DNA of 24,333 nucleotides. It comes from a virus. Below the pieces are notes generated by a model, which ran no database searches, was not told the DNA's origin, and worked only from the letters and a program-made list of their open reading frames with translations. Below are positions 1 to 24,333 of this stretch, piece by piece. The translations under genes and the position numbers were made by a program. The stretch is taken from IMG/VR virus record IMGVR_UViG_3300005432_000016, positions 1 to 24,333 of that record; one strand, given 5' to 3'. Each line of letters opens with the position of its first letter. Position 1 is the stretch's first letter.

Positions 1-3000
1 TATTGTTTGTAAAACCAATTCTTAGGTTATTCCAGATCGCTGCGTTACCATTAACTTGAGCGTTAAATGTAGATGTAGCATTAACTGTCAGAGTATCGCT
101 AGAAGCGTCACCAAGAGTTGAGTTACCTTCTACCAGAATGAATCCATCAACTTCAAGATTGTCTGTGATATGGACTTGACCACCTTGAGAGTCAAGAATT
201 AGATTTCCTGATGTGGTGGAGATTTCGGTTGCAGCATCAACGCCGATCTTGATGTTATCCGCCGTGATGTCGGTGGAAGTAATCGCTTGGTTGAAGGTGA
301 CAGTACCTGTAACGACGTGTGCATCCCCAGCACCATTACCGATAGTCGCGTTGCCATCAACCGTGAGTGTGCCATCAATCTGTGTATTGCCATCAACATT
401 GAGGTTACCGTCTACGTCAGCATTATCTGTGATGTTGACAGTGCCGCCATCAGAATCAAGAATCAGGTTACCAGAAGTAGTGCTGATTTCAGTAGGACCA
501 TCAACACCAATCTCAATCTGATCAGCAGTGATGTCAGTAGATGTAATTGCTTGGTTGAATGTTACTGTGCCAGTAACAATGTGGTTATCAGATCCAGCAT
601 TACCAATGGTAGAGTTACCATCAACTTGGAAAGTGCCTGCAACATATGTGTTACCGTTGCTGGCAACAACAGTAAATTTATTACCGTTGACTGCAAGGTC
701 ATTAGTGACATCTAATGTGCCAGTAATATCTACGTTGCCACCGAAACTACCGTCATCGGTAACAATAAGATCATCACCAACAGTAAGGTCTAGACCAATA
801 CCAACACCACCACCAACAATCAGTGCACCTGTAGATGCTGATGTGGAATTAGTTGTATCAAATAGTTTGATTGATCCAGCGTCAATACCAGAGCGTGTGC
901 CAGAGAATGCCTCTGAAGAATTAGTCGCTCCATGATAGAAAGCATAGCGACCAGCAGAGTTATCCCAACCAAAGAAACCAATCTGTGCGCTGCCAGAATA
1001 ATATCTAAACTCAATACCTCTATCCTTAGCATCTGCCTGAGAAGGAGCAGTATCGCCACCCAGAGTAAAGACGGGATCGTCCAGAGTCTGAGTTGTAGAG
1101 TTAATAGTTGTAGTTGTGCCGTTAACAGTCAGGTTACCTTCAATAACGGTATTACCATCAACATCCAAGTCACCGTTAACAGTAACGTTGTCAGTGAATG
1201 TGGAGATAGCATTGACTGTCAATACATCAGTTGCATCAACACCAAAGGTTAGAGCGTCACCATTAAATGTGACATCACGGTTAAATGTGACATCACCGTG
1301 GACTGTAAGTGATCCATCTGTTGTGCCACCCTGTCCAACACGACCGATTGTAGTAGCACCAGACTCACCAAGGACTTGGAATTCAATAGTGTCTGTATTA
1401 GAAACCTTACCAATATAGAAATCGTCACCAACATACAAGTCTTGGACAATACCTACACCACCTGCAACTCTAAGTTGAGCATCAGGATCATCAGCAAAGT
1501 CTGCATTGTGTGCTGTGCCACCACCCAGATAGGTGCGATACAGGACATCAACGTTGTTGAGAAGTGAAGGACGTGTGCGTGCTGTGCCAGCGTCTTTGAC
1601 GACTAAACGGTCGGCCACGTACAGATCGGTGCCGATTCTTACATCCTTATCGATGTTTACACCACCAGCAAAGGTAGCGTTACCTACAGTGCTTAATGTG
1701 ATATCGTCTGTAGTTTCAGCAATAACGATATTGTTAGTGCGCTCAAAAGTGTTGATGCCGCCAACATTAAGACTACCTTCAATATCTGTGTTACCATTTG
1801 TCGATGTTACACGGAAAGTCTGACTACTACCATTGGTAATTGTAAAGAATTTACCAGTGGTATCAAGTGTAATGTCGTTGTGGAATGTAGCATCATCGTC
1901 AACATCCAATGTTGCGTTGAAGGTTACATCACTATCGACATTCAGTGTGCTATCAAAGTCAACGCCTTGCTTGACATTAACTGTGCCTTCAATGACAGTG
2001 TTACCATTATCGGTATCTACAGTAAACTTAGATACGCCAGCATCTGTCTTAATATCAAATACTTTATTATCTGCTCTTACAATTAGGTTATCTGTAATTT
2101 CAGTTTCCAGCTGGACATCCAGTGTGCCTTCAATAACAGTATTACCTGAAGCACTAGCAACAGTAAACTTATCAGTGCTGCCATCTCTGATAGCAAAGTT
2201 GGCATCAATATCAAGTGTGCCATCAATCTCAACGTTACCATTCAGGTGAGTTGTGCCACCCACGTTGAGGTTTTCAGAAATACCTGCACCACCAGTTACT
2301 ACCAATGTGCCAGTTGTAGGTGTCTTCCAAGTAGAAGACGTATTAGTTGTTAGTCTGAGGTTACCAGCAATGAGAGGAGCGTCAGTACCAGAATAAACTT
2401 CGCTTGTGTTAGTCGCGTTGTAGAGGAACCTATACCCGCCAGTGCCAGACCATATGTTAGCATCCGCGTAATTTTCGTCCCACCCGAAGAAGCCTTTTCT
2501 TGCTTGTGAATCATAATAGTGGAATTCAACACCTCTGTCTTTTCCATCATCGAGCGTTGGTGTTGTGTCTCCGCCCAAGGTAAGAATGACATCATCGATG
2601 GTGACTGTAGTTGAGTTAACTGTAGTCGTGGTGCCATCAACAGTCAAGTCTCCACGGATACGGACTGTGCCACTAATGTCATCGTCATCAGCAGGGTCAA
2701 GCACCATGATGGAATTGGTGGTTGACAACACATTATCCTGAATGTGGAAGTCTTCTACGTTAACGCGATGATCAACATCGGTAACGTTAATAGTAATATC
2801 TTGATCAACAGTCAGATTGAATGTTGCATCACCAGAACCTGCGTTGGTGACATTAACATCCATCGAGCGGTTGTTAGTTTCATTAATCTCTAGAGCAACC
2901 TCAAGATTGCCGCTAGTCCTCTTTATGAATTGATCGACTTTTGCAACGTCGAGGGTAAGATTACCAGAAAGGGTAGTGTCAAGATTAATGTCAACAGCGC

Positions 3001-4426: not shown

Positions 4427-4467
4427 TGCTTAAAGGATCCTGCAACTGCACACATTGTCTGCTGGTT

Positions 4468-4475
4468 TATTTATA
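4468..4475 (-). promoter_or_regulatory. T4-type late promoter (TATAAATA)
   Basis: Read on the minus strand this is TATAAATA, identical to the T4 late promoter -10 element recognised by gp55 with the gp45 clamp. It lies 42 bases upstream of the fibre ATG and just downstream of a transcription terminator. The fibre gene would therefore be re-initiated as a separate late transcript with a leader of roughly 35 bases. Confidence 0.75.
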
Positions 4476-4482
4476 TGTCTAT

Positions 4483-4506
4483 AAGAAAACCCCCTTTACG
4501 GGGGCT
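4483..4506 (-). terminator. Intrinsic terminator after the small-gene cassette
   Basis: On the minus strand AGCCCCC, loop GTAAA, GGGGGTT forms a 7-bp stem (five G-C pairs, one G-U, one A-T). A T-rich TTTTCTT tract overlaps and follows its end. It begins 5 bases after the TAA of the 69-aa gene and sits immediately before the late promoter of the fibre gene, so it isolates the two transcription units. Confidence 0.85.
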
Positions 4507-4511
4507 ATATC

Positions 4512-4721
4512 TTATTCACCCGCTTCCTCAGTTTTGTCCTCGGGTGGACTGTCCAGATATTCAAGAGTTTCAATAGCACCCATGAGTTTCAGTGCTGTTG
4601 CTTCATTATCACGAATTTGTTTTTGGAGTTTCTGGTTCTCAGTTACCAAATTCTGATAGCGTGTCTTGAATTGCTCAAGCAATTCAGATTGGTCCATTGT
4701 TTCAGGTACGTCAAGTGTCAT
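4512..4721 (-). CDS. Small coiled-coil protein (69 aa), function unknown
   Basis: A 69-residue acidic protein. After a short N-terminal segment (MTLDVPETMDQSELL) it has heptad-like spacing of L, V, I and A from about residue 14 to 54, with many E, K and Q, which predicts a single coiled-coil helix. The tail is acidic and disordered (SPPEDKTEEAGE). There is no signal peptide or membrane segment. The ATG overlaps the TGA of the upstream gene as ATGA, which suggests translational coupling, and GGAG lies 10 bases before the start. I recognise it only as the kind of small conserved hypothetical found among cyanophage virion genes. Its size, its coiled coil and its place directly before a tail-fibre gene recall T4 gp57A, a small fibre-folding chaperone, but I see no sequence proof of homology. 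Confidence 0.8.
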   Translation of the reverse strand: MTLDVPETMDQSELLEQFKTRYQNLVTENQKLQKQIRDNEATALKLMGAIETLEYLDSPPEDKTEEAGE

Positions 4722-4975
4722 TTAGATTGATCTCCGTTAGCAATAATGTGTAGTAAACGTTTGATGTCATTCAATTCAGATTTTAACCCTTTTACTTCAT
4801 CTTGTAAAGTAGAGAAGGATTCATCTTTTTTGGTGCGCTTATCATGCGCTGCCATATATTTATCATACTCACTTTTATTGCAATTCACGATTGCATTGGA
4901 GTATGGGTCACGATACCAGCCATCTTTCCCCTCAACGGGGATGAGATCTGGATCATAGGGGTTGGTTTGTGCCAT
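4718..4975 (-). CDS. Small conserved phage protein with C-terminal coiled coil (85 aa)
   Basis: The protein starts MAQTNPYDPDLIPVEGKDGW. The first half is rich in P, Y, D and N (WYRDPYSNAIVN, then KSEYDKYMAAHDKR), and the last third (about 53-80) is a predicted coiled coil with L and I at heptad positions. I chose the ATG at 4975. A TTG at 4993 would add six residues, but it falls on the likely transcription start and would use up the only GAGG that can serve as a ribosome site, although that site is 12 bases from the ATG. The gene is first in a two-gene cassette, overlaps the next gene by 4 bases, and has a sigma70-like promoter just upstream. It resembles conserved hypothetical proteins of marine T4-like phages; the function is unknown to me. 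The coiled coils of the two small proteins could pair. Confidence 0.82.
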   Translation of the reverse strand: MAQTNPYDPDLIPVEGKDGWYRDPYSNAIVNCNKSEYDKYMAAHDKRTKKDESFSTLQDEVKGLKSELNDIKRLLHIIANGDQSK

Positions 4976-4998
4976 ACTTGACAAGTGCCTCAATTATT

Positions 4999-5026
4999 AT
5001 TATAATCAACCATGTAAGGGTTGCAA
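4999..5026 (-). promoter_or_regulatory. Sigma70-like promoter of the small-gene cassette
   Basis: On the minus strand TTGCAA (5021-5026) and a perfect TATAAT (4999-5004) are separated by 16 bases in the 58-base gap after the DUF4815 gene. Transcription would start near 4992 and give a leader of about 17 bases. This is a host-type (early) signal, whereas the flanking structural genes carry late-type words. Confidence 0.6.
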
Positions 5027-5033
5027 GGGAGCT

Positions 5034-8000
5034 TTAAGTAGCTAAAGCAGTAGCACGAAGATCAGCAATTAGAGGTACTCTTGCTTGGTTAGTAGATCTC
5101 ATAACGATCTTCACTTGGAATGCGTTGAAGTTAAGACCTCTTGCTTCATAGGCATAATCCTTATAAAGAATTTCCTCGGAAGGAGTAGAGTCATAATTCG
5201 TCGGCAGACCTAACAGAGTCCAACCTGTCTCTTCGCTGGATGTAGCATTACCGATCTTGAATGCACGGTAGTATACGCGGACTTCAGAAGCAGGATGTCT
5301 GGTGACTTGGAAGTCAACCTTGAGAGATCTAGCCTCTTGACCCAAGCGGGCGAGACGTGTGATGTATACTGCGTCGTTTTGATCACCATTAGGAAGTGTC
5401 GAAACATCTTGATCCCTATCAATATTAGACTGTTGTCCATAAGGATCAGGACCGCCTGGCCATGCATTGATACGGTTGGTGGTTGTAATCAGAGAGCAAC
5501 GATCCAAGTCAATACATGGAGATAGAGATGCCTTATCAGTAGACAACTCAATAATCATGTTGAATGACTTACCACCATCAAGTTTGTTTTGCTCGTTAAT
5601 CTTGGAGCAGATCAACTGAGGTGAGTAGAATCTATTTTGCTCATTGAGGACAACATCCTCGTATGTGCCATTGTTAACAAAGGACGCTTGGTCGATGGTG
5701 GTAGATCCATCACCGATTGACGTGCCCGTAGTAGTATTTACACGAGCAAGAATATTAGTCTCTGGGAGATTCATGGTGGAGACAGTAGGTGTCAAAGTCT
5801 CATACTGGACATTCTGAGAAGCAATAACGCCTGTGCCACCTGCACGAATTCCATTTGTTGCAACACTATCAACGTGCAACATATAAGTATCCAACCATGG
5901 GCAAGAAATGCTGGTATGGACCTTATTGATTTCTGTCAGAGGAATACCATCAAGGTTGTAACATTCAACAACTGTGCCAGAGGGATGCTCTTGCTCAGCA
6001 GTAGAGTTAGATCCTCTACCAGAAGTTGCAACTGTAATGGTTTGTCCGCTAGTAGAAATAGCAGAGTATTTAATAATTTCTGTGCCGATCTTAATAAAGC
6101 CAGGATTCAAGTTACCAATTCCTGTGCCATTAATAATCGTATGGAATGCAGAAGCATCCTGCACCTGAATACTACCAGCACCAACTGACAGAGTAGAAGT
6201 CAAAGTAGTAGAAGGGATCTCAGAAACAATTCCAGAAACCTCTACGTTGTTTGTGCGTTGATGCATACAGTGGTTTCTGTGATACACCAAGACTTCCTTA
6301 TCATCATTTGAATATGTAGGAGCAGCAGTAGGATAAGTGTCATAAGTATCACCAGCATAAGTAACGCTAGTAATAGTTGCAGATGTGCCGCCTGGCTCAG
6401 ATAGTGTATCTGCCAAGTCGAATGCACCATCAACAAAGTTGACACTCAAAGTTTGTGTGCCTGCATCATAGTTTGTTACTTTAGCGGTAGCGTTGGATGT
6501 AGATCCTGTGATAGTATTATTAACTTCAAAGACACCGTTAAAGATAGCGGACAACACAATGGTTGCTGTTGACTGAGAGGATTTAATACCTTGGAATGGA
6601 TTACCATTTGCATCCAAGAAACCTGACTGCCAAGATCCAACAATATCGGAAATCGTAATCACTTCAGGATCAGATGTTGAGTCAAACTCAACAATGGTGC
6701 CTTCTGCGTTAGAAGGTGTCTGAATGATACGAGCACCAATAGTGAAATTATTATTTGTGCCTGTAGGGAGCAACAGTTGTTGCTTTGGTTTGAGAGTTTG
6801 AATTGGATTCTCAATCAAGTTATGGACACCACCGTTACCGAGACCCAACTCAGCGTTATTAAATACGGCGTTACCAATACTTGCTGTGAATTCAGCACGA
6901 TAGATGGTAAACTTCAAATCCTCATACTGGTCAGCAGTCCATGTAGATGCGTTTTGTGACTTAAAGAGCACACCAGCATATGGTTGGTCAGAGATGGTCC
7001 TTGTCCCGCTGACTTCAACGTCACCCATTCTGGAGATCCAAACTTTATATTCGTTGGAGTCAGACAGAAGCACGAAGCAATATTCAATCGACTGCTTAAT
7101 ATAAACAGGAGACTGGAATGTAAATCGTGTTGGGATTGCAGCGTTATCAGACAATTCAACCTGAGAAGGATCGATTGTCACGTCAGAGAAAGGAAGAATA
7201 TCCTTAGTAGGATAACCATTCTCCATAGTCCTGATCTGCATAGAGATAGGAATGTTGCTATCTTTAGTGTTAAAGAAGATATCAACACCTGTCAGGAAGA
7301 TACCACCTTCTTCATCAACGATGAAGGATTGTGCAAGAGGGTCATACCAACCAACCTGACGTGTCTCAGTCCTAGTTGTAATAACTTGTCTTTCATCAGT
7401 AACAGTATCTCTAACGATTTGAGCGTTTCTGATTGCAAGAATATTTTCTCTAACAGTCTGTAAAGTACCTGTTGCTTTATATTCAGTATCTGCAGAAGAA
7501 TCAACTTCGCCAGGTGATCTACTATTAGTATTAGATGTTGTGAATCTAAATGTCCTTGTGCCAGTTGCCCAACGTGGGTTTGCATCATTCTTAGGAGAAG
7601 GAATGAAGAATGTGCCCTGCAGGTTACCGATGTTATCAGAGAGCAGACGGCGATCTTTCACAACAGCGCGAGCACCAGAGGTTTGACCCACCAACACTTC
7701 ACCTGTTTGTGCATTACCGAAGAAGTTAGGATTGACAGTTTCAGCAAGTGCCTTCAAGTCAATATTAAGTACGGGTGTTTGAGATGCATATGACTCGGGA
7801 AGAGTTGCCTCACCAACACCATAAGGGTCAGTCTTATAACCGTCATTTGCAGCGACGACCTGAAGTTGACACTTGGAAGATTCACCAATGACAGTTTCGC
7901 CAACAACGAAAGGTGTTTCGTTTGTGCGAGTGTCTTCAGAAGAGTTTTTGATCAGCTCAATAACCTTAGGAGTAATATAGTTGGTAACATCAACACCATC

Positions 8001-11000
8001 AAAGAATGCATACATTCTGGTGCGAGGCTTCAAACGATCAACGTTGAAACCAATGTTACGAGATCTAATCCAAGGAATTGCTGTTTGAGACAGGATAGTG
8101 TCACCAAGAGACTTTCTGTCAATCTTGGGCACAACACGAGTCCTGATACCTTGTCTTGCTTGGTTGTTAACAACACGATATGTGCGTCTTTCGTGCAGGT
8201 AGAAAAGACCCTGACGACGCTGACCGTGACCAGCACGACCTAACTGACGACCAATACCATATGTACCTGATCTAGACTGGAAGGAAGAAGATGATTGAAG
8301 TGATTCACCAGTCCAGTTGGTTTGCCAAGATCCCCATTGGATAGGAGCAAAACCATTCTGGTCAATCTGAAGGTCTCTAGCAACAGCAGAGAAATCACCC
8401 TCGACGTTTTCAACACGAGCAGGAAGACGCTCAATATCAATCCAATCGTCAGATGCTGGAGTTAGGTCAACACGACCAATGAATGTAAACACGTTGAATG
8501 GGTTAACATTCTCAGTCCTAGATGCATAAGGTTGCTTAACAATCTCAACATCCTGCCAAGGCAGGAAGATCATATTACTTTCAGTCCTTACAACATTGTT
8601 AGATGCTGAAGCATTAAACTCAAGAGGGACATTAGTAGTATAGTGAGCAGGTCTCAACAGACCTTCTTTGAAGTCCATGGAGCACTTATAGTCAACGTTA
8701 AGCACGTCGCCAATAGTGTGGTCGGTAAAGTCATCAACCACATAACCATTCTTCAGACGGTCGAAACCATTGTCGTCATAGGACTTAGCGTTGTCTGCTT
8801 GGACTTCCAACAGTGACAGAGATGTGTAATACTCAACGTGAGTAAGACGAGTCTCAAGATCACCAATATCTTTCATAGTGTAGCGACGAATGATCTCAGG
8901 GAAGATCAGAGTATCTCGCTCCACATCGTAGTTGTATGGTTTGTGCTCAAGCACTGCCAACAACATAGCATTTTCAATACCCTCAGGTGGGAGAAGATCC
9001 TCACCAGAGACACCCCTTACAACTTGCAGTTTGTTGTCATGGGTAATAAACAGTTTGTCGATTCTAGGAAGATAGTAGGAATAATCCATTCTAAATTCCG
9101 TATCAACCTTCATGATGTCGAAGATTGTCGCACCGCCCGTGCCACCAGAAGTGTTAAATGTGCGTGCAGCAAAGTCAAGAGATGCACAGTTAACAAAGTA
9201 TGGTGCACCAATAGTGCCGTTACCAGATGCCAATTCACCAACAGCAGGACGGAAGTCCAACTGGTCTCTCAGGAAGTTAATAGATCCATCAAGTTTGTAA
9301 TTTGGAATCTCTTTGAAAGTAATACCTGTGTAAGATTGTGCAGCAAAATAGTCACCTGAAGATTCATGAATGAAGTAGTCAAAGATAACAAGTAGTTTTC
9401 TTGTAGGTGCTGTAAATCCTGGAATTCTAGTGATCTTACAAACATCATAGAAATGTGCTTTTTGACCAGGATCCAACTCATACTGAGATGTAATAACTTT
9501 ACTACCTCTACCGATAGATCCTTCAGCATCATCAATGATTGCTGAGAGAGGTTGACTATCATCATCTACACCATCAATAGTTTCGCCAGGCAAGAATGGA
9601 ATTTCATTCAATGCGACGATGTGTAGTTTTAGAGTTGCGTTAATAAACTGAATAACACGACCACGAGCACCAGATGTCCTACCAATAACAACACTACCAG
9701 AATCAAAGAAGGTTGCTTCTTGCAGTGTCAGGAAAGGTGCTTCTGCATCATTATCGTCTTCAGATTCATAGATTGCATGAATCTTATAAACGTCATTTAG
9801 AGCAAAAGAAATTTCTCTATCTTCAATACGGGTGCCATACAAGTTACCGTAAGCAAGACCGAATTTTTGCTGGTCATTATTATTTTGTGTGCGGACCACT
9901 TTCATGGCACGCATCTTCGCAGCAGTCTTAATTTTCTTAGAAACGATATTCTTAGAAACCAGTGCAGTCAATTTAACAGTCTGGACATTTGTCAAACCGT
10001 CAATCGTGATGGACTGTCTAGATGCACCGAAGGTAACAGTCAACTGTCCACCATCATTCAGAGCATCAATGTCAAGGTTTTGTCCAACTGAGTATGCAGA
10101 TCCAGATTCAGACAGGACAGTCAAGACATAGTTTTCACCGTCAAGAGATGCAAACTGCTCAGATTCAGGCAGAGTAACAGTAACACCACCAGACACAACA
10201 GTTTTGTTTGTGAATGTGCGATAGACAAAGAATGATTCATCACTGATAGACTTCATTGAAGTCTTAGGAGTATCAATCGTCAGCTCACCATTCTGATAAT
10301 CTTTTTGGAAAATGTATGGACGAAGACGTGCCAATACAGAATATTCTCCATTGGAAATAGATCCCTTATTCAGAGTAGGATCAACTCTCGCTACTTGAGT
10401 AGCATAATCAAACACATTATAGGAAGCACCTGTGTGAGAGTTACCAGATTGTGTCTTAATATATTGTGGATCAACTCTCTCAATACGGAAAGATGTCTCA
10501 CCTTCTGCACTTGTGCCAGATACAGTTACAACTTCACCTGGTCTAAGATCGTTTTCAAACTTAGTCCTAAAACCAGTCAAAGTAAATGCAGCTTGATCAA
10601 GAGTAACAGTAGTTGCTTCGATTTCTCTTTGATCATTTAACAACCAGTTACAACCAAAGATAACTTGGTTACTGTTGTTTCTACCAATACAAGATCTTGT
10701 ATCAGTAGGCTCAAATGTCCATGCTGCTTCCAGTGTGCCGATAACACGACCATCTCTTTCCATCACCTCACCGTTAACAAATTTACCAGAAACTTGCTCA
10801 AGGGAGAAATAGTTACCAGATCCAGCATCAGCAACAAAACCTCTAGCATTAGAAGTCCTGCCGACAATCACATCACCAACCTGCACAGATTGGTTACCTG
10901 CTGCCAAGTTAACGGCAGTATACATTTGAATATCAAACATATAAAGGTCATAGATGCCAGTCTGATCTTCTTGGATCTGAATGGTGCGACAACGACCAAT

Positions 11001-12320: not shown

Positions 12321-12321
12321 C

Positions 12322-13857: not shown

Positions 13858-13878
13858 TTTCTACCGATACCTTCTTTT

Positions 13879-13886
13879 TATTTATG
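13879..13886 (-). promoter_or_regulatory. Probable late promoter for gp8 (CATAAATA)
   Basis: The 33-base gap between the 623-aa gene and gp8 contains CATAAATA on the minus strand, one base from the T4 late consensus TATAAATA and followed by an A-rich run. It lies 21 bases before the gp8 ATG, which would give a very short leader. The call is tentative because A+T-rich gaps can match by chance. Confidence 0.5.
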
Positions 13887-13890
13887 GGAC

Positions 13891-15762: not shown

Positions 15763-15764
15763 TA

Positions 15765-17681
15765 TTAGACAACTGTAAGATTACCGACCATCAATGGATG
15801 TTGAGTGCATTGATACACATATGTCGTGCCAGGAGCAAGATCCATAGGCACTGTCCAATATTGGACACCATTCTGAGATCCACTCACGCCTTCAGTAACA
15901 GCAGATCCACCACTTGTTAGTCTCAGAGCAAATGGGTGAGGACCACCAACTGTATTATCAAAACGATATGTAAAACCACGATAAACGTAGATTGTAGGAT
16001 CGTCTGTGTTTGGATCAACGCCACCACCTGCAAATCTGTATGCACCAGATCCATTAGCAGTGATTTGGAAAGAGATTGTAGGAGATGCAACTCCTTCATA
16101 TCCACTTCCATTGTGGATCAAACTTTGACCATCAGATGCTGTAGGAAGTGCAGCAGCAGAGTTATTAATAGTAAGGACCGTATTTGCACCAGTGCCAGAC
16201 ACTACTGTTTGGATGTTAGTGCCACCAACAACCGACAGCTCACCAGTTGCTGTAGAAGCTGTAACAGATCCACTATCACCAGAAAGTGTCTCAAAAAGAT
16301 TTTGGACAACGTTAGGTGCGTCGTTAGTGATTGTTATAGCAGCACCAGTGATCGATGTCGTAATACCTGTGCCGCCAGTGAATGTAAAAGAATCATCCGT
16401 AGCGGCTGCAGATCTGGTGCCAGAATCTGCATTAAAAGTTTCAAATATATTTTGATCAGGTGCGCCAGCTGCTCCAGTGTAAGCAATAGTTACAGTGTCA
16501 CCACTAATTGAAGTAGAGATACTTGACCCACCAGCAATGATAAGGGTGTCATTTGCAGCAGAAGCAGTTGTAGTGCCTGTGTCAGCATTAACAGTTTCAA
16601 AAAGATTCTGTGTTGTGCCGCCACCGCCACCAGTTGTTGAATCGTCATTCGCTGCTTGGAAAGCATTGGCAGATGCAACCCACTTAAGGACTTGACCATC
16701 ACTAGGACCACCATTGGCAGCCATGTCAACATCTTTCAACTCACCGATAGATGAGTGGATATCAAGAAGTTGTCTCCATCTAACAGGATCACTAACGGCA
16801 AAACTGCTACCTTGTCCTGTATGGTGATGACACCAGTAATAAAGAGCAGCAGGAGCATCAGAAGGAATAGTCCATTCTATTGTCCTAGTTGTAGCTGCAG
16901 CAAATCCAGTAGTATACCCTGACATGTCAACGTTGGATCCATCCAACTTGTATTGCACGCCAGCCATATAATGACCATTACCGTTATGGTCGCCATCAGA
17001 CCCTGTGCTAAACATCAAGGGGTGAGTCTGACTATTATAATTTTCGTTTGAGGCGTCGGACTGATCGAAGACGTATGTATTTCCTCTTACCAATGGGAAG
17101 TTAGATGGTTTTTCTGTGCCATCGAGATAGAAAACACCAGTTGCTTGTCCACCTACAGTATCTACACCAACTGTAACTGCAACGTTAACAGTTTCTCCAG
17201 ATGGAGAATGTGCAAAATATCCATGTGCTGTGCTATGGACATGAGCAAACATACCGTGGTGTGTCGTAGCATCAGGTAGATCTGCTAGGTTTGTATACAC
17301 TGCAGAATATTTCAGCTTTCCATCAGCGCCATCAATATATGTTAAAGGACTTCCAGAAGATCCAGCCCAAAGGTGAATATCGCCAGTGCCATGTGGTTTA
17401 ACAACAATATTACCGTCAGATGACGAAGTAATTTGGTTTCCTGCTACGTCGAGGTTACTACTCAATGCGTCGTAGTGACTGCCAACAAATGCAGTGCTAC
17501 CATTCCAGCGCAAAACTTGACCCGCTGCTGGAGTAGCGATGTCGATTTGCACATTTGTGCCATCGCCAAGTGCATTGTAGACCTCATTAATGACGTTATT
17601 AAGTTTAATAGCGCCATCTCGCAGAGTATCGCCAGTGCCATCGTTGGCGGCAGAACCGATATTTAGATTTTCCTTTGCCAT
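15765..17681 (-). CDS. Fibre-like virion protein with two cupredoxin-like domains (638 aa)
   Basis: The N-terminus (LNIGSAANDGTGDTLRDGAI, then KLNNVINEVY) is the common phage fibre motif. A His-rich stretch (HHGMFAHVHSTAHGYFAH, 141-158) follows. Residues about 180-297 form a cupredoxin-like domain: VRGNTYVFDQ, THPLMF with H220, then YYWCHHHTGQG with C284, H287 and Q290. Residues 301-345 return to fibre sequence (LLDIHSSIGELKDVD, GQVLKW). Three 50-residue repeats beginning QN(L/I)FET lie at 357-508. The C-terminal domain, about 534-638, is again cupredoxin-like: YRGFTYRFDN, PHPFALRL with H582, and YQCTQHPLMVG with C625, H628 and M631. The ligand set H, C-x2-H-x2-M has the spacing of amicyanin. 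There is no signal peptide. The 25-base upstream gap lacks a clear ribosome site. Fibre identity is firm, the cupredoxin fold is likely, and copper binding is inferred. It is not a plastocyanin gene. Confidence 0.88.
   Translation of the reverse strand: MAKENLNIGSAANDGTGDTLRDGAIKLNNVINEVYNALGDGTNVQIDIATPAAGQVLRWNGSTAFVGSHYDALSSNLDVAGNQITSSSDGNIVVKPHGTGDIHLWAGSSGSPLTYIDGADGKLKYSAVYTNLADLPDATTHHGMFAHVHSTAHGYFAHSPSGETVNVAVTVGVDTVGGQATGVFYLDGTEKPSNFPLVRGNTYVFDQSDASNENYNSQTHPLMFSTGSDGDHNGNGHYMAGVQYKLDGSNVDMSGYTTGFAAATTRTIEWTIPSDAPAALYYWCHHHTGQGSSFAVSDPVRWRQLLDIHSSIGELKDVDMAANGGPSDGQVLKWVASANAFQAANDDSTTGGGGGTTQNLFETVNADTGTTTASAANDTLIIAGGSSISTSISGDTVTIAYTGAAGAPDQNIFETFNADSGTRSAAATDDSFTFTGGTGITTSITGAAITITNDAPNVVQNLFETLSGDSGSVTASTATGELSVVGGTNIQTVVSGTGANTVLTINNSAAALPTASDGQSLIHNGSGYEGVASPTISFQITANGSGAYRFAGGGVDPNTDDPTIYVYRGFTYRFDNTVGGPHPFALRLTSGGSAVTEGVSGSQNGVQYWTVPMDLAPGTTYVYQCTQHPLMVGNLTVV
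15768..16082 (-). other. C-terminal cupredoxin-like domain with complete ligand set
   Basis: Residues about 534-638 of the fibre-like protein. Candidate type-1 copper ligands are H582 (in PHPFAL), C625, H628 and M631. C-x2-H-x2-M is the amicyanin spacing, and the arrangement of a first His about 43 residues before the Cys fits the small blue copper proteins. The YRGFTYRF strand upstream matches the usual hydrophobic core strand of these folds. Confidence 0.65.
16158..16613 (-). repeat. Three tandem QN(L/I)FET repeats
   Basis: Three units of about 50 residues each (357-402, 409-455, 459-508 of the fibre-like protein) share QNLFETVNADTG, QNIFETFNADSG and QNLFETLSGDSG starts. Each continues with a T/S/A-rich segment, a GG(S/T) turn and alternating I/T/V strand residues. 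They probably form a repetitive beta shaft between the two cupredoxin-like domains. Confidence 0.8.
16791..17144 (-). other. Internal cupredoxin-like domain with Gln at the axial position
   Basis: Residues about 180-297 of the fibre-like protein. H220, C284 and H287 take the equatorial ligand positions. At the place of the axial Met there is Q290 (C-x2-H-x2-Q), the substitution known from stellacyanins. The domain lies between fibre-type sequences (GYFAH before, LLDIHSSIGELKDVD after) and looks inserted. Confidence 0.55.
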
Positions 17682-17703
17682 CGTGCTTGGATTTCTACAG
17701 TTT

Positions 17704-17711
17704 TATTTAGG
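17704..17711 (-). promoter_or_regulatory. Possible weak late promoter (CCTAAATA) overlapping a stop codon
   Basis: On the minus strand CCTAAATAAAA spans the TAA stop of the YHYH gene and precedes the fibre-like gene by about 22 bases. It matches six of eight bases of TATAAATA. The same CCTAAATA word spans the stop codon before the YHYH gene, which is the main reason to list it. Confidence 0.3.
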
Positions 17712-19290
17712 TGCCATCAAAGGTAATACCTGTGCTATCGAATGTAGCATTAGTGAAGGAGAAGTCGGCACCACTACCGCCACCCTCATTACCAGTTACT
17801 GTCAATGTTGCAACACTAGACAGCAATGGTGAGTTTTGTGCTGCTTGAGGTGCACCGAGAGGTCCACGCAATTCACAACGATAACGATATCCTGTCATGT
17901 AACCTTGAGCAGTTACAGCGTAAGTATTTGACGTTGCACCTGTAATAGTTGCAAACGAGAAACCACCGTCTGTAGATCTCTGCCACTGATAGGCAATAGG
18001 TCCATTTTCTGGTAGCACTTGTGCTGTAAGTGTGAATGTTGCAACAAGACCACCCGCAGTTGTAACATTCTGGGGTTGAGCACCAATCTGCAATGTTGGT
18101 GGAGGACCTTGCTGCTCACCGCCGCCACCTTGACTAGGTGGAGTTGCAGCACCATTATTAACAGGTTGATTAACACCTTCTCTAGTTGTAGTGCCAATCA
18201 AATATGGGAATGCTGCCTCAGTAGCATCATTCTCATCAAGACTTAAAAAATAGGCATAAGTGCCATCTGGGAATTCGGGTGTAACACAAAATCTACCATT
18301 ATGGTAGTCTAGGTCACCTATACCCTCAACATACTCCCAGTCCTGCATGAGAGACCCTGCAGGGGGGTTTGCTTGGGTCTGACCATACTCAGGTCTACCT
18401 AGTGCTTCTTCTGATTTAACCCTGTAAGACGAGACCATAGAGTCTGTGCCAGAGAGGTTATTCCAAGGGTTGTTGTAACCAAATGGTCCATAGATTGGGA
18501 ATCCATCAAATGCAACTCCGACCATCTTGGAGTGTCCATCAGGGTGTCTGATGTTATTTCCGTTGTATTGTGTTGATCCATAATAGTCATTGTAGGTTGC
18601 CATAATGGAATTGTCTTTCCAGCAATCTAGGAAATGAGTATCATGATAGTGATACTGTCCTGTTTGCTCTGGATGTCCCCCACAACTATCATCACCAAAA
18701 TCTACAGGAGAGGTGGGATAATGTGCATTCCAATTAAATCCTGCGGGAGGATTGCCACCGTTTCCAGCGCTAGGATTAAACATAACGACCCCGTTAGCAG
18801 CAATGCCAATAGCACCAAGAGGAGTAGCTGCCCTACCGTTTCTTTGGTCATAATATTCGCAAGTACCAGATGTGCCACTTTCACTATTCTCCATAATCAG
18901 ATCAAGTCTTTGATCTGTCGCTAACCAACAATTACCAGCTGAGCTTGTAAATGTTGTGCCTTGATAAACAAATCTTTGTTTTACTCCGTCAGAGAAAACA
19001 AACAAAAGATGATCACCACTCTGAATTTGATTATCAAACAAAGAGTTATCATTAACACTAATATTGACACTTCTAATAAAACCTTCTTGTGTCCAAGAAG
19101 TATCATCAAAAGTCCTAGAGATGCCAAAAGTCCCACCTCTGTAATAGAAGGTATGAGCAAATGCTTGCTCAGTTACAGAGTTTGGGTTGTTAACATTCGG
19201 GAAAGTGCCGTAACTCACGGGGTCTGGCAGACCGTCACCAGTAACTGCCAGTGTCCTAGTAGAGCTATCGTATGTTGCGGTAGCGGTCAT
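17707..19290 (-). CDS. YHYH-domain virion protein with C-terminal Ig-like domain (527 aa)
   Basis: Residues about 150-365 are a YHYH domain: GQYHYHDTHF (211-220), PDGHSKMVGVAFDGFPIYGP (250-269) and LDYHNGRFCVTPEFPDGTYA (327-346) are its hallmark blocks in order. The domain has many His, Cys and Asp residues in possible metal-binding places, but its biochemical role is not established to my knowledge. The N-terminal 145 residues are a separate beta-rich region with three Cys (121, 144, 203 across the border). A G/P/Q linker (380-397) leads to an Ig-like domain at 398-500 (PQNVTTAGG, YQWQRS with W436, YRYRCEL with C472) and a short tail. Ig-like domains on phage virions commonly sit on the surface and bind glycans weakly. 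The gap to the upstream gene is 14 bases, with no strong ribosome site. Domain calls are firm; a baseplate or fibre location is inferred from neighbours. Confidence 0.88.
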   Translation of the reverse strand: MTATATYDSSTRTLAVTGDGLPDPVSYGTFPNVNNPNSVTEQAFAHTFYYRGGTFGISRTFDDTSWTQEGFIRSVNISVNDNSLFDNQIQSGDHLLFVFSDGVKQRFVYQGTTFTSSAGNCWLATDQRLDLIMENSESGTSGTCEYYDQRNGRAATPLGAIGIAANGVVMFNPSAGNGGNPPAGFNWNAHYPTSPVDFGDDSCGGHPEQTGQYHYHDTHFLDCWKDNSIMATYNDYYGSTQYNGNNIRHPDGHSKMVGVAFDGFPIYGPFGYNNPWNNLSGTDSMVSSYRVKSEEALGRPEYGQTQANPPAGSLMQDWEYVEGIGDLDYHNGRFCVTPEFPDGTYAYFLSLDENDATEAAFPYLIGTTTREGVNQPVNNGAATPPSQGGGGEQQGPPPTLQIGAQPQNVTTAGGLVATFTLTAQVLPENGPIAYQWQRSTDGGFSFATITGATSNTYAVTAQGYMTGYRYRCELRGPLGAPQAAQNSPLLSSVATLTVTGNEGGGSGADFSFTNATFDSTGITFDGT

Positions 19291-19301
19291 CTTTTTACTT
19301 G

Positions 19302-19309
19302 TATTTAGG
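19302..19309 (-). promoter_or_regulatory. Possible weak late promoter (CCTAAATA) overlapping a stop codon
   Basis: The minus strand reads CCTAAATACAAG across the TAA stop of the right-edge gene, 11 bases before the ATG of the YHYH gene. It has six of eight matches to the late word and would leave almost no leader, so it is weak on its own. Confidence 0.25.
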
Positions 19310-22300
19310 CGTCGTCAAAGATTTGTGCAGGACTGAAGTTGCTCAAGACAGTAGCACCAGTCTGGACTGTGAGGATCGCAGAGTTGGAGTAGACAGGTGT
19401 TGCACCTGCTGCTGTGATTGCCACTCTATATTCATCACCATCGTCTGCCTGCGCTGCGGAGATCGTAGTAAATGTCGCTTGGTTAGCGCCAATAATATTA
19501 CTCCAAACAGTTGTGCCGTAGTCCTTCTTCTGCCACTGATAATTCAGTTGCTGATTATTGCTAACAGTAGCAATAACTGTGAAGGATGCTGTCTGACCTT
19601 GGTTAACAGTTACGTTAACAGGGTTGTATGTGATAGCGATTGTGCCAGGATCGATCTGTGCACCACCACCATAGTATTCTGCACCTTCGCCTGCGAGGAC
19701 ATCAAAACCACCGTTGACAGGTGTGCCAGTAGGTTCTGTGTAGTCGTCGGGGACAGTAGTCTCAACCAACACATTAGGCATTGCATATCCTGTGCCTGCA
19801 GTCTTCACGTCAATGCGTGCGATACCATTCAGTGCCTTGATGCGACCATCAAATCCAGAAGAGGAGATGATGTCAACGTTAGGTCTGGAGGTATAACCAT
19901 CGCCAGGGTTGGTGAGAAGTGCTTCGGTAACCTTACCTTTCTTGATTCTGGCAAGTGCCTCAGCGTTACGACCCTTAACAGATCCAGTGTATTCAAAGGT
20001 GATTAGAGAGTTGGAAGATTCGATCAAAGCAACTTCTCTGTTGAATTCCTCACCTTCGATGAAGAGTGAGTCACCAGTCTCGATAGGAGGCACAACAGTT
20101 GCAGCGATCACGTCAGCATCAGATCCAATGTAGGAGAATGCCACGAATGTGCCGCCTGCGCGAGGCACTTCAGAGAAGATGATTCTAGAACCAACGATCT
20201 CATATGAAACACCAGGCTCCTGTATAACACCGTTGAGAGAAACAATAATATTATTTTCAGGTCTAATGACGTTAGAGGAAACACCTTCAGTCAGTGTCAA
20301 GGAGTAGTAAATACCCAAGTAACGGAGGTTGAAGGAAGATCTCAATGAGTCAAACTCGAAGGAGATATCATCCAACTGACGCATCTTACCGATGTAGTAA
20401 CCAACGAATTCGGATCCAATCTCAGGTGCCTCAGTGAAGCGAATCTGATCAGAGAATGCGTTATAAGCGAAGTTACCGCCAGGTGGTTGAAGAATACCAT
20501 TAACAAAGACGAGCAGATGACCTGCAGGATCAGGGAAGTAGGATTCACCATTAGAGATGGTGAGTGAGAATTCTGTTTGTGTGCCGTCGAAACCTCTGAA
20601 GTAACGATCAACACGACCTTGAAGTTTAGCGGCTCTAGTAACAGCAGCACCCCATCCGTCATTAGCGGAGAGAGACATGTTATCAAGGAAATCGCCAACT
20701 GCATTCTCAATCCAGATGGTGCCAGTAACACCTGCGATATCGATCTTAACAACACGTCCGTAAGAGGTATATGTTGTGTCTGTCAGTGATGTTACAGGCG
20801 CGTAGATAGTTGGGAAGTTAGAGTTAATGTCATACTTACCAATCGAGTAGATTGTATTGGAAACTGCGCTAACTGGCTCACCAGATCCAACATCAATAGG
20901 ATTAGCAATCCAAAGTTTGTGGACACCGTAATTTGGCTCGCCTGGATCAAGATTCAATCCATTGATATATTTGGTGACCGTTGCGCTGAATCCAGGATCC
21001 TTAATAACGGTGCCTTGCAGCATGTAGACGGTATCGCCAGGTGCGAAGGTATCTGTAATACCAGTGTCAATAATTGCAGTGCCAAGATTCAACTCATACA
21101 CGTTAGTGCCGTGGACATAAGAGTTGAGAGTTAGTGGACTAGATCCAGAAACACCCTTGACTTCCAAGATGTAAGATGTCTGGTTACCATAAATGATATC
21201 GCCAGAATTCCATGCTCCATCAATGGTCTCAACGTCCATTGTGATCTTACCGCCAGTGTTATCAACGATAGCACCAGACTTATTGGAGTATTCACTCATC
21301 TTGGCGTAAGTTGCAGCAGTCTTACTGAAGAACCAGTCGCCTGTAGCAAATGCACCTTTCTTAACGTTGATTAGGAAGCGATCACTAATATCTGTGACAG
21401 TGCCTTCCAAGTTACTTTCTTGTGAAAGAAGCACATCATTTTGACTGATGATGCCTTGTTGGTTAATAAGTTTAACAAATGAAGTTGCTTGAGCATCCTG
21501 CAGTCTTGTTTGCAGAATCTTACCATTAACACTTGTGTTACCTTGGACAACCAGAGTCTCACCATTTGCAAATTCTTGCAGGTCGGTTGAGAGATTATTC
21601 AATTCATAGTGCTTGTAAGACTGAATAATTTCTGCCTCATTCTGAAGCACACTACCAACTTCAGCGTATGCTTGGGAGGTAGATCCATAAAGCACGTCTG
21701 CGGGGAGGAATCCACCCTCAAGAGGAGTGAAGTTTTCTCTTGTGCCGTATGTGGTGGTTGCTCTAGTAATTCCACTTCTGAGTGTCAAAGCAAATTGCTG
21801 TGCACCATTATTGGTAATATCGATGAAGAAATTATGGAATCTACCATCATGAATAGGAGATTCTGCAATTTCAAACCACGAAGAGGAATCAGACGCGATC
21901 ACAAAATATTCTGGTTTATTCAGAGTTTGTAGTGATGTCTGAGATGCAGGGATGTAGGTAACAATGTCACCTCTTCTAAAGTTGTTAGGCTTGTTGATTC
22001 TGATTCTGTATTCTGCTCTGTCATAACCAACAGGGACTGTAGGTGTAAGAAGGACAAGTGCAGGATCAGTATTCCAATCGTAACCAAGATTATACTTATT
22101 GCTAATATTAACAACGTCAGTGCTTGGGACAAAGTTGACTCTGTTTTCTGTTGGGAATTCAGATCTTGACATCGCATAGCGAATCACATTCAAAGAGGAG
22201 TCGAGGATAAACTCGGCGTGCTCTTGATTCCACTCAAGGCGAGTATTGATAGGAATGTTATAGATGTAATTTGCATATGCTGCCCACTCAGGTTCGGTCT

Positions 22301-24333
22301 GTGAGAGGTAAATAACAGACTTGGCCATTTCTCTGATCTTGGACAAGAATTCCAAGAGGAAAGATCTAATAATATTTGGGAATGCAATGAATGCACCATC
22401 ACCATCAAACCAATCAGCGATCAACTTAAATGCACCAGCGTTACCCTTAGTAATAAGGTCATACTGAATAGCATCAACGATTTCCTTACCAAGGAGATAT
22501 GGATCTGAATTGTAAGTTAGGATCTGTGTAGCAAATTGAGGATAAGAAACAACAGTCTCATCATATGCACGTCTGTAAATTGCAGGAGCATTGAATCTCA
22601 TGAGGTCTGCATACTGACGCAAGTTTCTATTGTCAGCAGTTAGAGATTCTGTCATCAAGACGAAGAGGTTATCAATCATCGATCTGACATTCTCACATGT
22701 ACCTTCTTGATAGTTGGTGTTAGAGGAGTATGCCGTTGTGCGAGTAATACCTGCAAGAGCATTGGTATTTGTCAAACCACCAACAATAGTGCTATCAACA
22801 ATATCCATCAAGGTAGTGATGGAAGACGCAACTTGTGGACAAGTTTGATTCCATGTGCCACTGTTTCCTAGACCACCATTAGCGGAGTCAAAGGTGATGG
22901 TAAGATCTCTATCAGCGATTTCGCTTGTATATTTGATTGGCCAGAAGTTAGGCAATTCCCACTGGAAATTCTTACTAGCAGCAGAATTAGGATACGTTGG
23001 GGCATTTTGTCCATTAGGATCTTGCATTGTATCTTCGACAATATCCCAGAGATATGTCAAACGATTCTGAATTTCTGTATTCTGATCTGAAGTGCCGTTA
23101 AATGTATTTGCTGGAGGTTGTGCGACTTCACCAACAATAGATCCAACACCTGCACCCAGCGCCATGTTGATCATAATATTCTTCGCTTGCTGAATAGCGT
23201 AAAGCGTCTCAGTTACCTGTGAAGTAACGTGAATAATAGCAGGACCACTTAAGTAGAATTCAGTTGCCAAACCAACATAGTTGTCACCACCATTCTCAGC
23301 ATTCCAGAGGACAGCACGGATTAGATCTGCAACGTCATGGACACAATCGATAGCGCCAGCAGAAATGATTCCGCCTTGGACAGCTCTCACGAAAGTGTGA
23401 GCGTATTGATTGTTAGAAGGAGATGCACCAACATTAACTGTAACAGTGCCATTTTGCTTGATAAGTGCACCAGCAGTAGCACTCACAAAGGTATGATCAT
23501 ATTGGTTATTGTTTGCAGCAACACCCACATAGCAAGAGAATGTTGTATCACTCTCGCGGCTGACAAGCAACCACTTCTCATTTGCAGGGTCTGTAGCACG
23601 AGGATAAGTATGGTTACTACCATTGCTATCCATTGTGCATGTGAATGTCAAGGAGTTAGCGGCAAGTTTAATTCTGTTGCCAGTTACCAATCCATGGTTG
23701 CCACTTGTTGTGATAACCATCTTACCTGAGACAGGATCATAAGTTGCATTGGTAATATCTTGAGTAGAAGTGCCAATAGCAGTGATAGCGCGAGTTGTGC
23801 CATATGCTGGATCACCATTACGAGGATATGCGTGCTCGCTTTGGTTATTATCCATAGCACAAGTGAATACCAAGCTATGAGGCTCGATAGACATTCTGCT
23901 GCCAACGTTGAAGGAGTGGTTAGGAATGGTCAGGACCATCTCACCTGTGCTTGCTGTGTAGTTAACAGCAGTTGGAGTGAAGTGCTCTCCACCATCATTC
24001 CATCCATAACGGACAGCACCAGTAACAGCAGATACAAATGTGTGGTCGTATTGCTGGCCTGAAGGAGATGCACCGACATTAATTGTGAGTGTATCTGGAG
24101 TTGTATCTGTGATTAGCAGACGTTTCTCGTAAGCAGGATCAGTATTTCGTGGATATGGATGGTTAGTTGCATTGCTATCCATACTGCAGGTAAATGTAAT
24201 ACCATTTGCAGCGATACTGATATACTCACCAACGTTAAGTCTGTGATCTGGAATAGTGAGAGTCAACACACCAGTTGATGCAGTATATGATGCATTTGTT
24301 GGAGTGAATTCCTTCCACCACATTGCACCAGCA
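19305..24333 (-). CDS. Very large virion structural protein, start beyond right edge
   Basis: The frame is open from 24333 to the TAA at 19305, about 1675 codons. The first ATG in the window (24323) is internal: the codons before it (Ala-Gly-Ala) and after it fit the middle of a repeat, so the true start lies outside. Residues 1-320, counted from that Met, hold three repeats with F(T/S)C-x-MD and H-x-YPR-x-x-DP. A helical region (about 325-700) includes LYAIQQAKNIMINMALGAGV. Two NGxxQxPG units occur at about 20113-20605 (LLVFVNGILQPPG, IIVSLNGVIQEPG), then two GxGY units, and an Ig-like domain at the end (NVTVNQGQTASFTV, NYQWQKK, DEYRVAI). By gene order it precedes gp8 at some distance and may occupy the role of T4 gp7, for which no sequence evidence is visible. 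No signal peptide or enzyme motif is seen. Confidence 0.88.
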   Translation of the reverse strand, partial: AGAMWWKEFTPTNASYTASTGVLTLTIPDHRLNVGEYISIAANGITFTCSMDSNATNHPYPRNTDPAYEKRLLITDTTPDTLTINVGASPSGQQYDHTFVSAVTGAVRYGWNDGGEHFTPTAVNYTASTGEMVLTIPNHSFNVGSRMSIEPHSLVFTCAMDNNQSEHAYPRNGDPAYGTTRAITAIGTSTQDITNATYDPVSGKMVITTSGNHGLVTGNRIKLAANSLTFTCTMDSNGSNHTYPRATDPANEKWLLVSRESDTTFSCYVGVAANNNQYDHTFVSATAGALIKQNGTVTVNVGASPSNNQYAHTFVRAVQGGIISAGAIDCVHDVADLIRAVLWNAENGGDNYVGLATEFYLSGPAIIHVTSQVTETLYAIQQAKNIMINMALGAGVGSIVGEVAQPPANTFNGTSDQNTEIQNRLTYLWDIVEDTMQDPNGQNAPTYPNSAASKNFQWELPNFWPIKYTSEIADRDLTITFDSANGGLGNSGTWNQTCPQVASSITTLMDIVDSTIVGGLTNTNALAGITRTTAYSSNTNYQEGTCENVRSMIDNLFVLMTESLTADNRNLRQYADLMRFNAPAIYRRAYDETVVSYPQFATQILTYNSDPYLLGKEIVDAIQYDLITKGNAGAFKLIADWFDGDGAFIAFPNIIRSFLLEFLSKIREMAKSVIYLSQTEPEWAAYANYIYNIPINTRLEWNQEHAEFILDSSLNVIRYAMSRSEFPTENRVNFVPSTDVVNISNKYNLGYDWNTDPALVLLTPTVPVGYDRAEYRIRINKPNNFRRGDIVTYIPASQTSLQTLNKPEYFVIASDSSSWFEIAESPIHDGRFHNFFIDITNNGAQQFALTLRSGITRATTTYGTRENFTPLEGGFLPADVLYGSTSQAYAEVGSVLQNEAEIIQSYKHYELNNLSTDLQEFANGETLVVQGNTSVNGKILQTRLQDAQATSFVKLINQQGIISQNDVLLSQESNLEGTVTDISDRFLINVKKGAFATGDWFFSKTAATYAKMSEYSNKSGAIVDNTGGKITMDVETIDGAWNSGDIIYGNQTSYILEVKGVSGSSPLTLNSYVHGTNVYELNLGTAIIDTGITDTFAPGDTVYMLQGTVIKDPGFSATVTKYINGLNLDPGEPNYGVHKLWIANPIDVGSGEPVSAVSNTIYSIGKYDINSNFPTIYAPVTSLTDTTYTSYGRVVKIDIAGVTGTIWIENAVGDFLDNMSLSANDGWGAAVTRAAKLQGRVDRYFRGFDGTQTEFSLTISNGESYFPDPAGHLLVFVNGILQPPGGNFAYNAFSDQIRFTEAPEIGSEFVGYYIGKMRQLDDISFEFDSLRSSFNLRYLGIYYSLTLTEGVSSNVIRPENNIIVSLNGVIQEPGVSYEIVGSRIIFSEVPRAGGTFVAFSYIGSDADVIAATVVPPIETGDSLFIEGEEFNREVALIESSNSLITFEYTGSVKGRNAEALARIKKGKVTEALLTNPGDGYTSRPNVDIISSSGFDGRIKALNGIARIDVKTAGTGYAMPNVLVETTVPDDYTEPTGTPVNGGFDVLAGEGAEYYGGGAQIDPGTIAITYNPVNVTVNQGQTASFTVIATVSNNQQLNYQWQKKDYGTTVWSNIIGANQATFTTISAAQADDGDEYRVAITAAGATPVYSNSAILTVQTGATVLSNFSPAQIFDDA
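20113..20605 (-). repeat. Two NGxxQxPG beta units
   Basis: Two successive units in the right-edge protein share the order: strand, (L/I)(L/I)V-x-(V/L)NG(I/V)(L/I)Q, xPG, a short turn, I(R/I)F-(T/S)-E-(A/V)P, then G-x-x-F or G-x-F with an aromatic strand (GYYIG, FSYIG). This unit is widespread in phage fibre and baseplate proteins, where it forms part of a beta-rich shaft. Confidence 0.75.
23364..24333 (-). repeat. Three Cys/Met/His-containing repeats at the start of the visible protein
   Basis: The repeated core is FTCSMDSN...HPYPRNTDP, FTCAMDNN...HAYPRNGDP and FTCTMDSN...HTYPRATDP, at residues 44-63, 153-172 and 227-246 counted from the Met at 24323. Each is preceded by a strand pair (T-I-P-x-H-x-x-N-V-G type) and mostly followed by QYDHTFV or QYAHTFV. 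At the right edge the first copy is cut, so more copies may lie outside. Confidence 0.8.

Follow-up and report, generated by a model that had tools for sequence, protein, structure and literature searches.

Why are the words GTAC, GAAC, and GTTC so nearly missing from a stretch of cyanophage DNA in which similar words are common? The window considered here, meaning the whole stretch of 24,333 bases that was analyzed, has a GC content of 43.0%, slightly below the value of about 45% first given for it, and Megablast and gp8 searches placed it in the marine T4-like cyanophages (Kyanoviridae). It is almost wholly coding, with nine frames on the minus strand (Table 1), and the S-WAM1 counterpart of the gene for the 2428-aa protein is annotated as a baseplate wedge tail fiber connector. 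A recount of the plus strand gave 15 GTAC, 10 GAAC, and 4 GTTC, exactly the numbers in the original prediction, which attributed the shortage to selection on the DNA, for example by a host restriction or modification activity with a degenerate GTWC-like target.

Table 1 Genes of the window and the GTAC, GAAC, and GTTC sites that survive in them
Coordinates	Strand	Feature	Sites	Basis
1..24333		Whole window, tail/baseplate region of a marine T4-like cyanophage (Kyanoviridae)		Word counts, relatives
2..4426	-	Large structural gene, cut at window edge	4 GTAC, 4 GAAC, 1 GTTC	Role inferred from S-WAM1 gene order
4512..4721	-	Small gene, function not assigned	1 GTAC, 1 GTTC	Open frame
4718..4993	-	Small gene, function not assigned	No site	Open frame
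5034..12320	-	2428-aa structural protein (7.3 kb)	6 GTAC, 0 GAAC/GTTC	Open frame
12322..13857	-	gp8 baseplate wedge, source of backbone tree	2 GTAC, 1 GAAC	
13891..15762	-	Structural gene	2 GAAC	Open frame
15765..17681	-	Structural gene, gp10-like baseplate wedge	1 GAAC	Role inferred from gene order
17707..19290	-	Structural gene	1 GTAC	Open frame
19305..24323	-	Large structural gene	1 GTAC, 2 GAAC, 2 GTTC	Open frame

Depletion of three tetranucleotides in the window

Under a second-order Markov model, the observed-to-expected (o/e) ratios in the window were 0.04 for GTTC, 0.10 for GAAC, and 0.18 for GTAC. The related words are spared, as had been claimed: the plus strand contains 95 GCAC, 178 GTGC, 72 GGAC, and 65 GTCC, together with 165 GATC. 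In the first 1.2 kb, the single GTAC and the absence of GAAC and GTTC were likewise as described, although GTGC and GCAC together number 13 (11 and 2, respectively) rather than about eleven. As a null model, we used 300 synonymous-codon shuffles that preserved each protein and the codon usage of each gene. The window genes hold 14 GAAC and GTTC against a shuffle mean of 206.6 (minimum among the 300, 180) and 15 GTAC against 100.5 (minimum 81), a gap that neither codon usage nor dipeptide content can account for. The depletion stands under both the Markov-corrected and the codon-shuffled expectation, with ratios far below 1. The shortage is present in each of the three codon phases, in agreement with the predicted independence of phase, and the codon choices that had been cited for it were borne out in the window. 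GAA is followed by C in 2/209 cases and GAG in 46/158, whereas for valine GTT is followed by C in 1/309 cases and GTC in 46/128. Ahead of an AC-codon, glycine is written GGC 84 times, GGT 7 times, and GGG 3 times, and arginine is written CGC 17 times, AGG 17 times, and CGT twice.

Other words are also low in the window relative to the shuffle means, including CCGG (0 versus 25.3), AGCC/GGCT (27 versus 90.2), AGCT (27 versus 79.0), and GGCC (6 versus 25.9). These deficits are common to most relatives, whereas that of GAAC/GTTC is not. As a separate observation, the RGCY words (AGCC/GGCT, AGCT, and GGCC) were low and CCGG was nearly missing in most cyanophages examined. In the window, the base after GAAC is C or T at all 14 sites (both strands counted), as first noted, but this does not hold genome-wide, since in a 186-kb contig of the same species the next base is A in 28/160 and G in 20/160 sites. 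A long-context rule that forbids GAACA and GAACG is thus not upheld. The flanks have some effect, TGAAC being kept least and CGAACC most, and a longer motif did not emerge.

The way in which sites were lost was read from a comparison of the window with three undepleted relatives, which are not independent of one another (S-SZBM1, locus L092, was left out). The window still has 20/565 of their GAAC, GTTC, and GTAC sites, compared with 42/109 GCAC, 27/99 GGAC, 72/223 GATC, 59/125 GAAT, and 64/218 GAAG among the control words. The losses hit all four positions, by transitions and transversions alike. The commonest single change in GAAC is C-to-T at the last position (35/236), and other losses include G1T (20) and A2C (9) in GAAC, T2A (25) in GTTC, and T2C (31) in GTAC. 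Replacements at all four positions point to selection against the word rather than decay of one modified base. Overall, the proposal that selection acts on the DNA word in a cyanophage, through a degenerate GTWC-like target, is supported, with codon usage, dipeptides, and a single class of mutation ruled out.

Distribution of the avoidance and of a gene pair among relatives

The 186,016-base contig G031 matches 19,633 window bases at 98.71% identity and another 4,702 at 98.55%, contig G028 is 99.87% identical to the window in DNA over 20,000 bases, and gp8 is identical in G028, G029, and G031. Genome-wide, G031 contains 160 GAAC against 1399 expected and 133 GTAC against 574, with GATC at 1176 against 1211; the observed and expected GAAC counts of the controls are 1952/2051 in S-WAM1 and 1803/1833 in S-RIM14. 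Among 80 gp8-related viral contigs, the o/e of GAAC is 0.05 to 0.32 in 25 and at least 0.83 in 55, with none between; equal depletion of unrelated phages is thus not seen. Within the 25, GTAC is at or below 0.50 in 17 and at 0.56 to 0.79 in 8. GAAC is the clean marker because GTAC is also variable or low in the undepleted relatives (about 0.4 to 1.15, mostly about 0.6–0.9). The isolates Syn9, MS29, S-H35, S-RIM4, P-TIM40, and S-MbCM6 are low in both GAAC and GTAC, and S-WAM1, ACG-2014a, S-RIM8, S-RIM2, S-CAM22, S-RIM12, S-RIM14, S-SZBM1, QB2, and the record L080 are undepleted. S-WAM1 is undepleted though its gp8 is 88% identical to that of the window, implying that the avoidance cannot be put down simply to the backbone.

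The avoidance is associated with a module in which a gene for a protein of about 200 aa (phrog_11812, function unknown in PHROGs), hereafter the partner, overlaps or adjoins a PF01555 DNA methyltransferase gene near a UvsW-like helicase. A search found PF01555 methyltransferases in 10/20 records. Among the ten carriers are contig G004 and each of the six depleted isolates with a complete genome, and the undepleted ACG-2014a, S-CAM22, and S-RIM12 carry a different PF01555 methyltransferase; PF00145 methyltransferases were found in 0/17 genomes. In the depleted phages, a frame of 202 to 222 aa directly precedes the methyltransferase, overlapping it in Syn9, P-TIM40, and S-MbCM6 and separated by a 37-base gap in S-RIM4, and a homologous upstream frame is present at 66/80 methyltransferase loci (best 80 of 388). 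In the comparison of Syn9, P-TIM40, S-MbCM6, and S-RIM4, the methyltransferases are 77 to 94% identical to that of Syn9 and the partners 37 to 70%. The Syn9 pair lies 2.9 kb before the helicase. In G031, the pair directly follows the helicase (121,182–122,399), with the partner at 122,494–123,093 and the methyltransferase at 123,086–123,913; the window counterpart lies at about 155,300–179,632, and the module (122,494–123,913) is thus outside the window. The module is intact at three loci of same-species contigs (L187, L189, and L192). At L210 (10001–10782), the methyltransferase frame seems shifted (782 bases matched, the starting frame running into a stop after 34 residues), possibly by a sequencing error, and there the nuclease frame is intact and GAAC is at 0.09 despite the shift. 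The methyltransferase matches PF01555 with an E value of 9.5e-40, and its sequence matches in the PDB are N4-cytosine and N6-adenine enzymes. The motif TSPPY is a sign of the N4-cytosine type. A 2010 comparison places an "N6A-methylase" beside a helicase within a variable gene set, according to the portion drawn on here (PMC3037559), and the MS29 paper (PMC10436341), in the corresponding portion, names a methyltransferase and no nuclease.

The partner profile matched 7/37 gp8-derived records, and all seven are depleted. In a set of 16 relatives with complete or near-complete genomes (QB2 being recorded as partial), the nuclease profile had matches in 6/6 GAAC-depleted and 0/10 undepleted genomes (Fisher p = 1.2e-4, kinship ignored). 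For 33 phages with a judgeable module state, GAAC was measured near gp8, at least 10 kb from the module, and its o/e was 0.04 to 0.54 in 17/17 module phages and 0.82 to 1.13 in 16/16 module-free phages. Three depleted fragments (G003, G009, and G019) have no nuclease match, and none reaches the locus, as two are without the helicase and one stops 1.5 kb beyond it. When contigs were picked by the methyltransferase alone (best 80 of 388), GAAC was below 0.6 in 69, compared with the 25 depleted contigs among the 80 picked by gp8, and at 0.61 to 1.13 in 11, which include the five most distant methyltransferases (56–61% identical); exceptions in this set are L231, at 0.87 with a good nuclease match, and L204, at 0.77. 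Nine contigs outside the discovery set gave 0.04 to 0.68, all under the lowest module-free value. Three of them are close relatives with the full GTWC pattern, and the distant L321, L331, L333, and L334 show mild, unspecific lows (0.48–0.68); L332, tabulated with them, lies on a contig that the discovery set had already covered. On the gp8 tree, module state changes three times and depletion changes at the same three places. Two independent pairs sit on well-supported branches and both are concordant (sign test p = 0.5), and with two to three phylogenetically independent contrasts, shared descent is weakly controlled. Outside the viral records, a Nonlabens xiamenensis contig (L278, with proteins nearly those of P-TIM40) and two MAG contigs (L277 and L279) carry the cyanophage module and the word avoidance; all three are probably phage contigs misfiled as cellular.

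The partner protein and the words avoided by its subtypes

In 30 aligned partner sequences, Glu96 and Lys98 are invariant and Asp79 is kept in at least 90%, and the simple pattern G[YFW]D..[EQ]xK matches 27/36 non-redundant sequences. As read from the alignment, this D...ExK arrangement is the signature of PD-(D/E)XK nucleases. An AlphaFold2 model of the partner (mean pLDDT 89) was compared with known structures by VIA-align, in which NaeI (Z = 9.7 and 9.3), DpnI (7.8), BglI (7.3), SfiI (7.1), and SwaI (6.9) precede the first non-nuclease match (Z = 5.8). Since a Z of 7 to 8 commonly arises by chance in this method, the motif, the gene pairing, and the fold are to be weighed together. The top Foldseek rows were EcoRV and SwaI, which are weak matches (best E = 8.5e-3, none at or below 0.001). 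There was no meaningful Pfam match, no named family in NCBIfam, PADLOC, or Pfam was similar at the thresholds used, and a scan with the S-MbCM6 nuclease gave no match. Judging by the modeled fold, the partner looks like a Type II restriction endonuclease, for which DNA cutting would be expected.

The avoided words vary with the subtype of the partner, the subtypes being single-linkage clusters at 50% identity. Medians in the cluster of 39 loci are 0.11 for GAAC, 0.21 for GTAC, and 0.94 for GATC. Clusters of 9 and 5 loci are also depleted in GATC (0.31 and 0.16, respectively), a cluster of 4 loci is low in GAAC only (0.43, with GTAC at 1.02), and five loci of another cluster show a mixed pattern. 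The GATC contrast between clusters has a p value of 2e-8, kinship ignored. Likewise, partners with the GATC-type motif accompany a GATC ratio of 0.38 in L284, a contig outside the discovery set, and GATC at 4/65 in L279, from the genome collection. GTAC and GAAC might conceivably belong to two separate systems: they mostly drop together, yet GAAC-only subtypes exist. Dam protection was also considered as an explanation for the sparing of GATC, as a Dam-like PF02086 gene is present in 17/17 complete or near-complete genomes; it is insufficient alone, because G040 (199 kb), which has a GATC-avoiding subtype, carries PF02086 too.

Several other cyanophages have missing words of their own. TTAA occurs 0 times against 590 expected in the 179,558 bases of S-RIM14 (KX349301, loci L251–L259), which has no PF01555 gene and one PF02086 gene; when its genes beside the helicase were compared with PHROGs, no nuclease was found save for a weak endonuclease V match in an oxygenase. 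In P-TIM40 (KP211958, loci L115–L124), GCGC occurs 0 times against 107, and a second PF01555 methyltransferase lies at 51.6 kb. The o/e of TCGA is 0.00 in a 21.5-kb stretch of L080, a record of 179,110 bases. An extra Dam-like PF02086 gene is present in each of S-RIM8 (L083), QB2 (L094), S-RIM12 (L086), and S-RIM2 (L084), in which low ratios were seen for GATC (0.16 in S-RIM8 and 0.22 in QB2), ACGT (0.44 in S-RIM12), and AATT (0.24 in S-RIM2). We speculate that the total absence of a word may mark nucleases without a protecting methyltransferase.

Source of the selection and comparison with known systems

The explanation that we favor, and hold to be probable, is that the phage encodes an exchangeable Type II-like restriction–modification (R–M) system of GTWC-type specificity and has purged the system's own sites from its genome. 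The module inserted beside the UvsW-like helicase would supply a PD-(D/E)XK-type nuclease and a PF01555 methyltransferase, and the target set of the window subtype would be GTAC plus GAAC/GTTC, that is, GTWC and its complement. The nuclease would cut unmarked DNA bearing these words, namely the host chromosome and perhaps that of competing phages, probably after the phage has taken over the cell. The methyltransferase would mark the same words and protect phage DNA incompletely, so that the remaining sites would be costly and be lost by any available substitution. Such incomplete methylation would account for the 10 to 25% of sites that survive in module phages. Against this explanation, complete methylation would make avoidance needless, and the word set is not constant among the depleted phages, 8/25 of which have GTAC at 0.56 to 0.79.

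The source that the original prediction gave as an example was the host. A host R–M system that cuts GTWC could have driven the phage to lose its sites and acquire a protective methyltransferase; site loss against host enzymes is well documented (PMC6286503, in the portion cited here), and a methyltransferase would be another means of escape. However, the methyltransferase comes with a conserved partner of nuclease fold, which keeps catalytic-type residues and would be useless for protection alone. Moreover, MS29 and QB2, both reported as isolated on Synechococcus sp. MW02 (PMC10436341), differ according to the module, GAAC being at 0.14 in MS29, which has it, and at 1.02 in QB2, which does not. 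This contrast argues against a purely host-set avoidance, bearing in mind that an isolation host is not a host range. When about 85,000 species genomes were scanned for the nuclease with a single peptide pattern, which would not pick up an unrelated enzyme that had the same specificity, three loci came up, all resembling phage contigs. The deficit tracks the phage-encoded nuclease and methyltransferase instead, and we consider host restriction an unlikely source.

Dnd phosphorothioation by the host, at GpsAAC/GpsTTC with minor GpsTAC, would fit the words themselves, as the motifs reported for Salmonella Cerro 87 are mainly GAAC/GTTC with GTAC as a minor one (PMC9521924). It does not account for the association with two phage genes, nor for the subtypes in which GATC is avoided as well or GTAC is not avoided. 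Marine Synechococcus and Prochlorococcus fall outside the order Cyanobacteriales. Cyanobacterial dnd clusters were in Cyanobacteriales only, going by the cited portion of one survey (PMC8569181), and Dnd modification appears extremely improbable here. It is also very improbable, if slightly less so, that a readily mutating base methylated by the phage enzyme erodes the words, with no need for the nuclease. The methyltransferase is indeed present in depleted phages, and the last-position C-to-T change leads the GAAC losses, but sites are lost through changes at each of the four positions, transversions included, and the avoided word set tracks the nuclease subtype.

Under the favored explanation of a phage-encoded R–M module, phrog_11812 would gain a likely function and target, and word avoidance would serve to predict which enzymes a phage itself encodes. 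Cyanomyoviruses are without the T4 genes denA, ndd, and denB, and an "as yet un-described method" for breaking down host DNA was raised in the portion cited here of a 2010 review (PMC2984593); the module is a candidate for this route. A wider proposal, which we put forward tentatively, is that marine T4-like cyanophages replace denA, ndd, and denB with exchangeable restriction endonucleases, in which case the erased words would be the fingerprint of each nuclease: GTWC/GWWC for phrog_11812 and probably others, such as TTAA and GCGC. Confirmation of the favored explanation would also mean that restriction modules are passed around among ocean phages as weapons of their own, beyond a role in host defense.

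A literature search, covering its sources in part, found no published report of GTWC avoidance or of a cyanophage restriction pair. Phage genomes that have lost short recognition words are known, and in the cases described in the cited part of PMC6286503 the sites are paired with host-encoded enzymes, whereas in the present case the phage itself seems to encode the enzyme that matches. Dnd shares the word set of GAAC/GTTC with minor GTAC, as reported in PMC9521924, but is a host modification of the backbone, made by dnd genes that have no relation to the two phage genes. Within the cyanophages, the phrog_3978 endonuclease and PF01555 pair of ACG-2014a (L159:5682–7044) occupies the same hotspot beside the helicase; its proteins are different ones (14% identity in alignment), and that phage does not avoid GAAC (0.91) and has AGCC at an o/e of 0.05. 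The gene pair, fold, and motif of the module resemble those of orthodox Type II R–M systems of the NaeI, EcoRV, and PvuII type. However, the word set is closed under complement rather than being one plain palindrome, and the nuclease is without sequence likeness to a named family (Pfam, NCBIfam, and PADLOC, at the thresholds used). The chloroviruses also encode Type II R–M systems (CviAII, CviJI, and others), for which host DNA degradation is a proposed use (PMC7019647, as cited in part). They too are large DNA viruses in which genes for a short-site nuclease and a methyltransferase are adjacent, but their hosts are eukaryotic algae, their enzymes were shown biochemically, and their nucleases are packaged in the virion, whereas the cyanophage module has a cyanobacterial host, predicted enzymes, a degenerate word set, and a visibly purged genome. 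Virus-encoded R–M is therefore already known, and what would be new here is the putative nuclease family, degenerate words that vary with its subtype, and the purging of a genome by its own enzyme.
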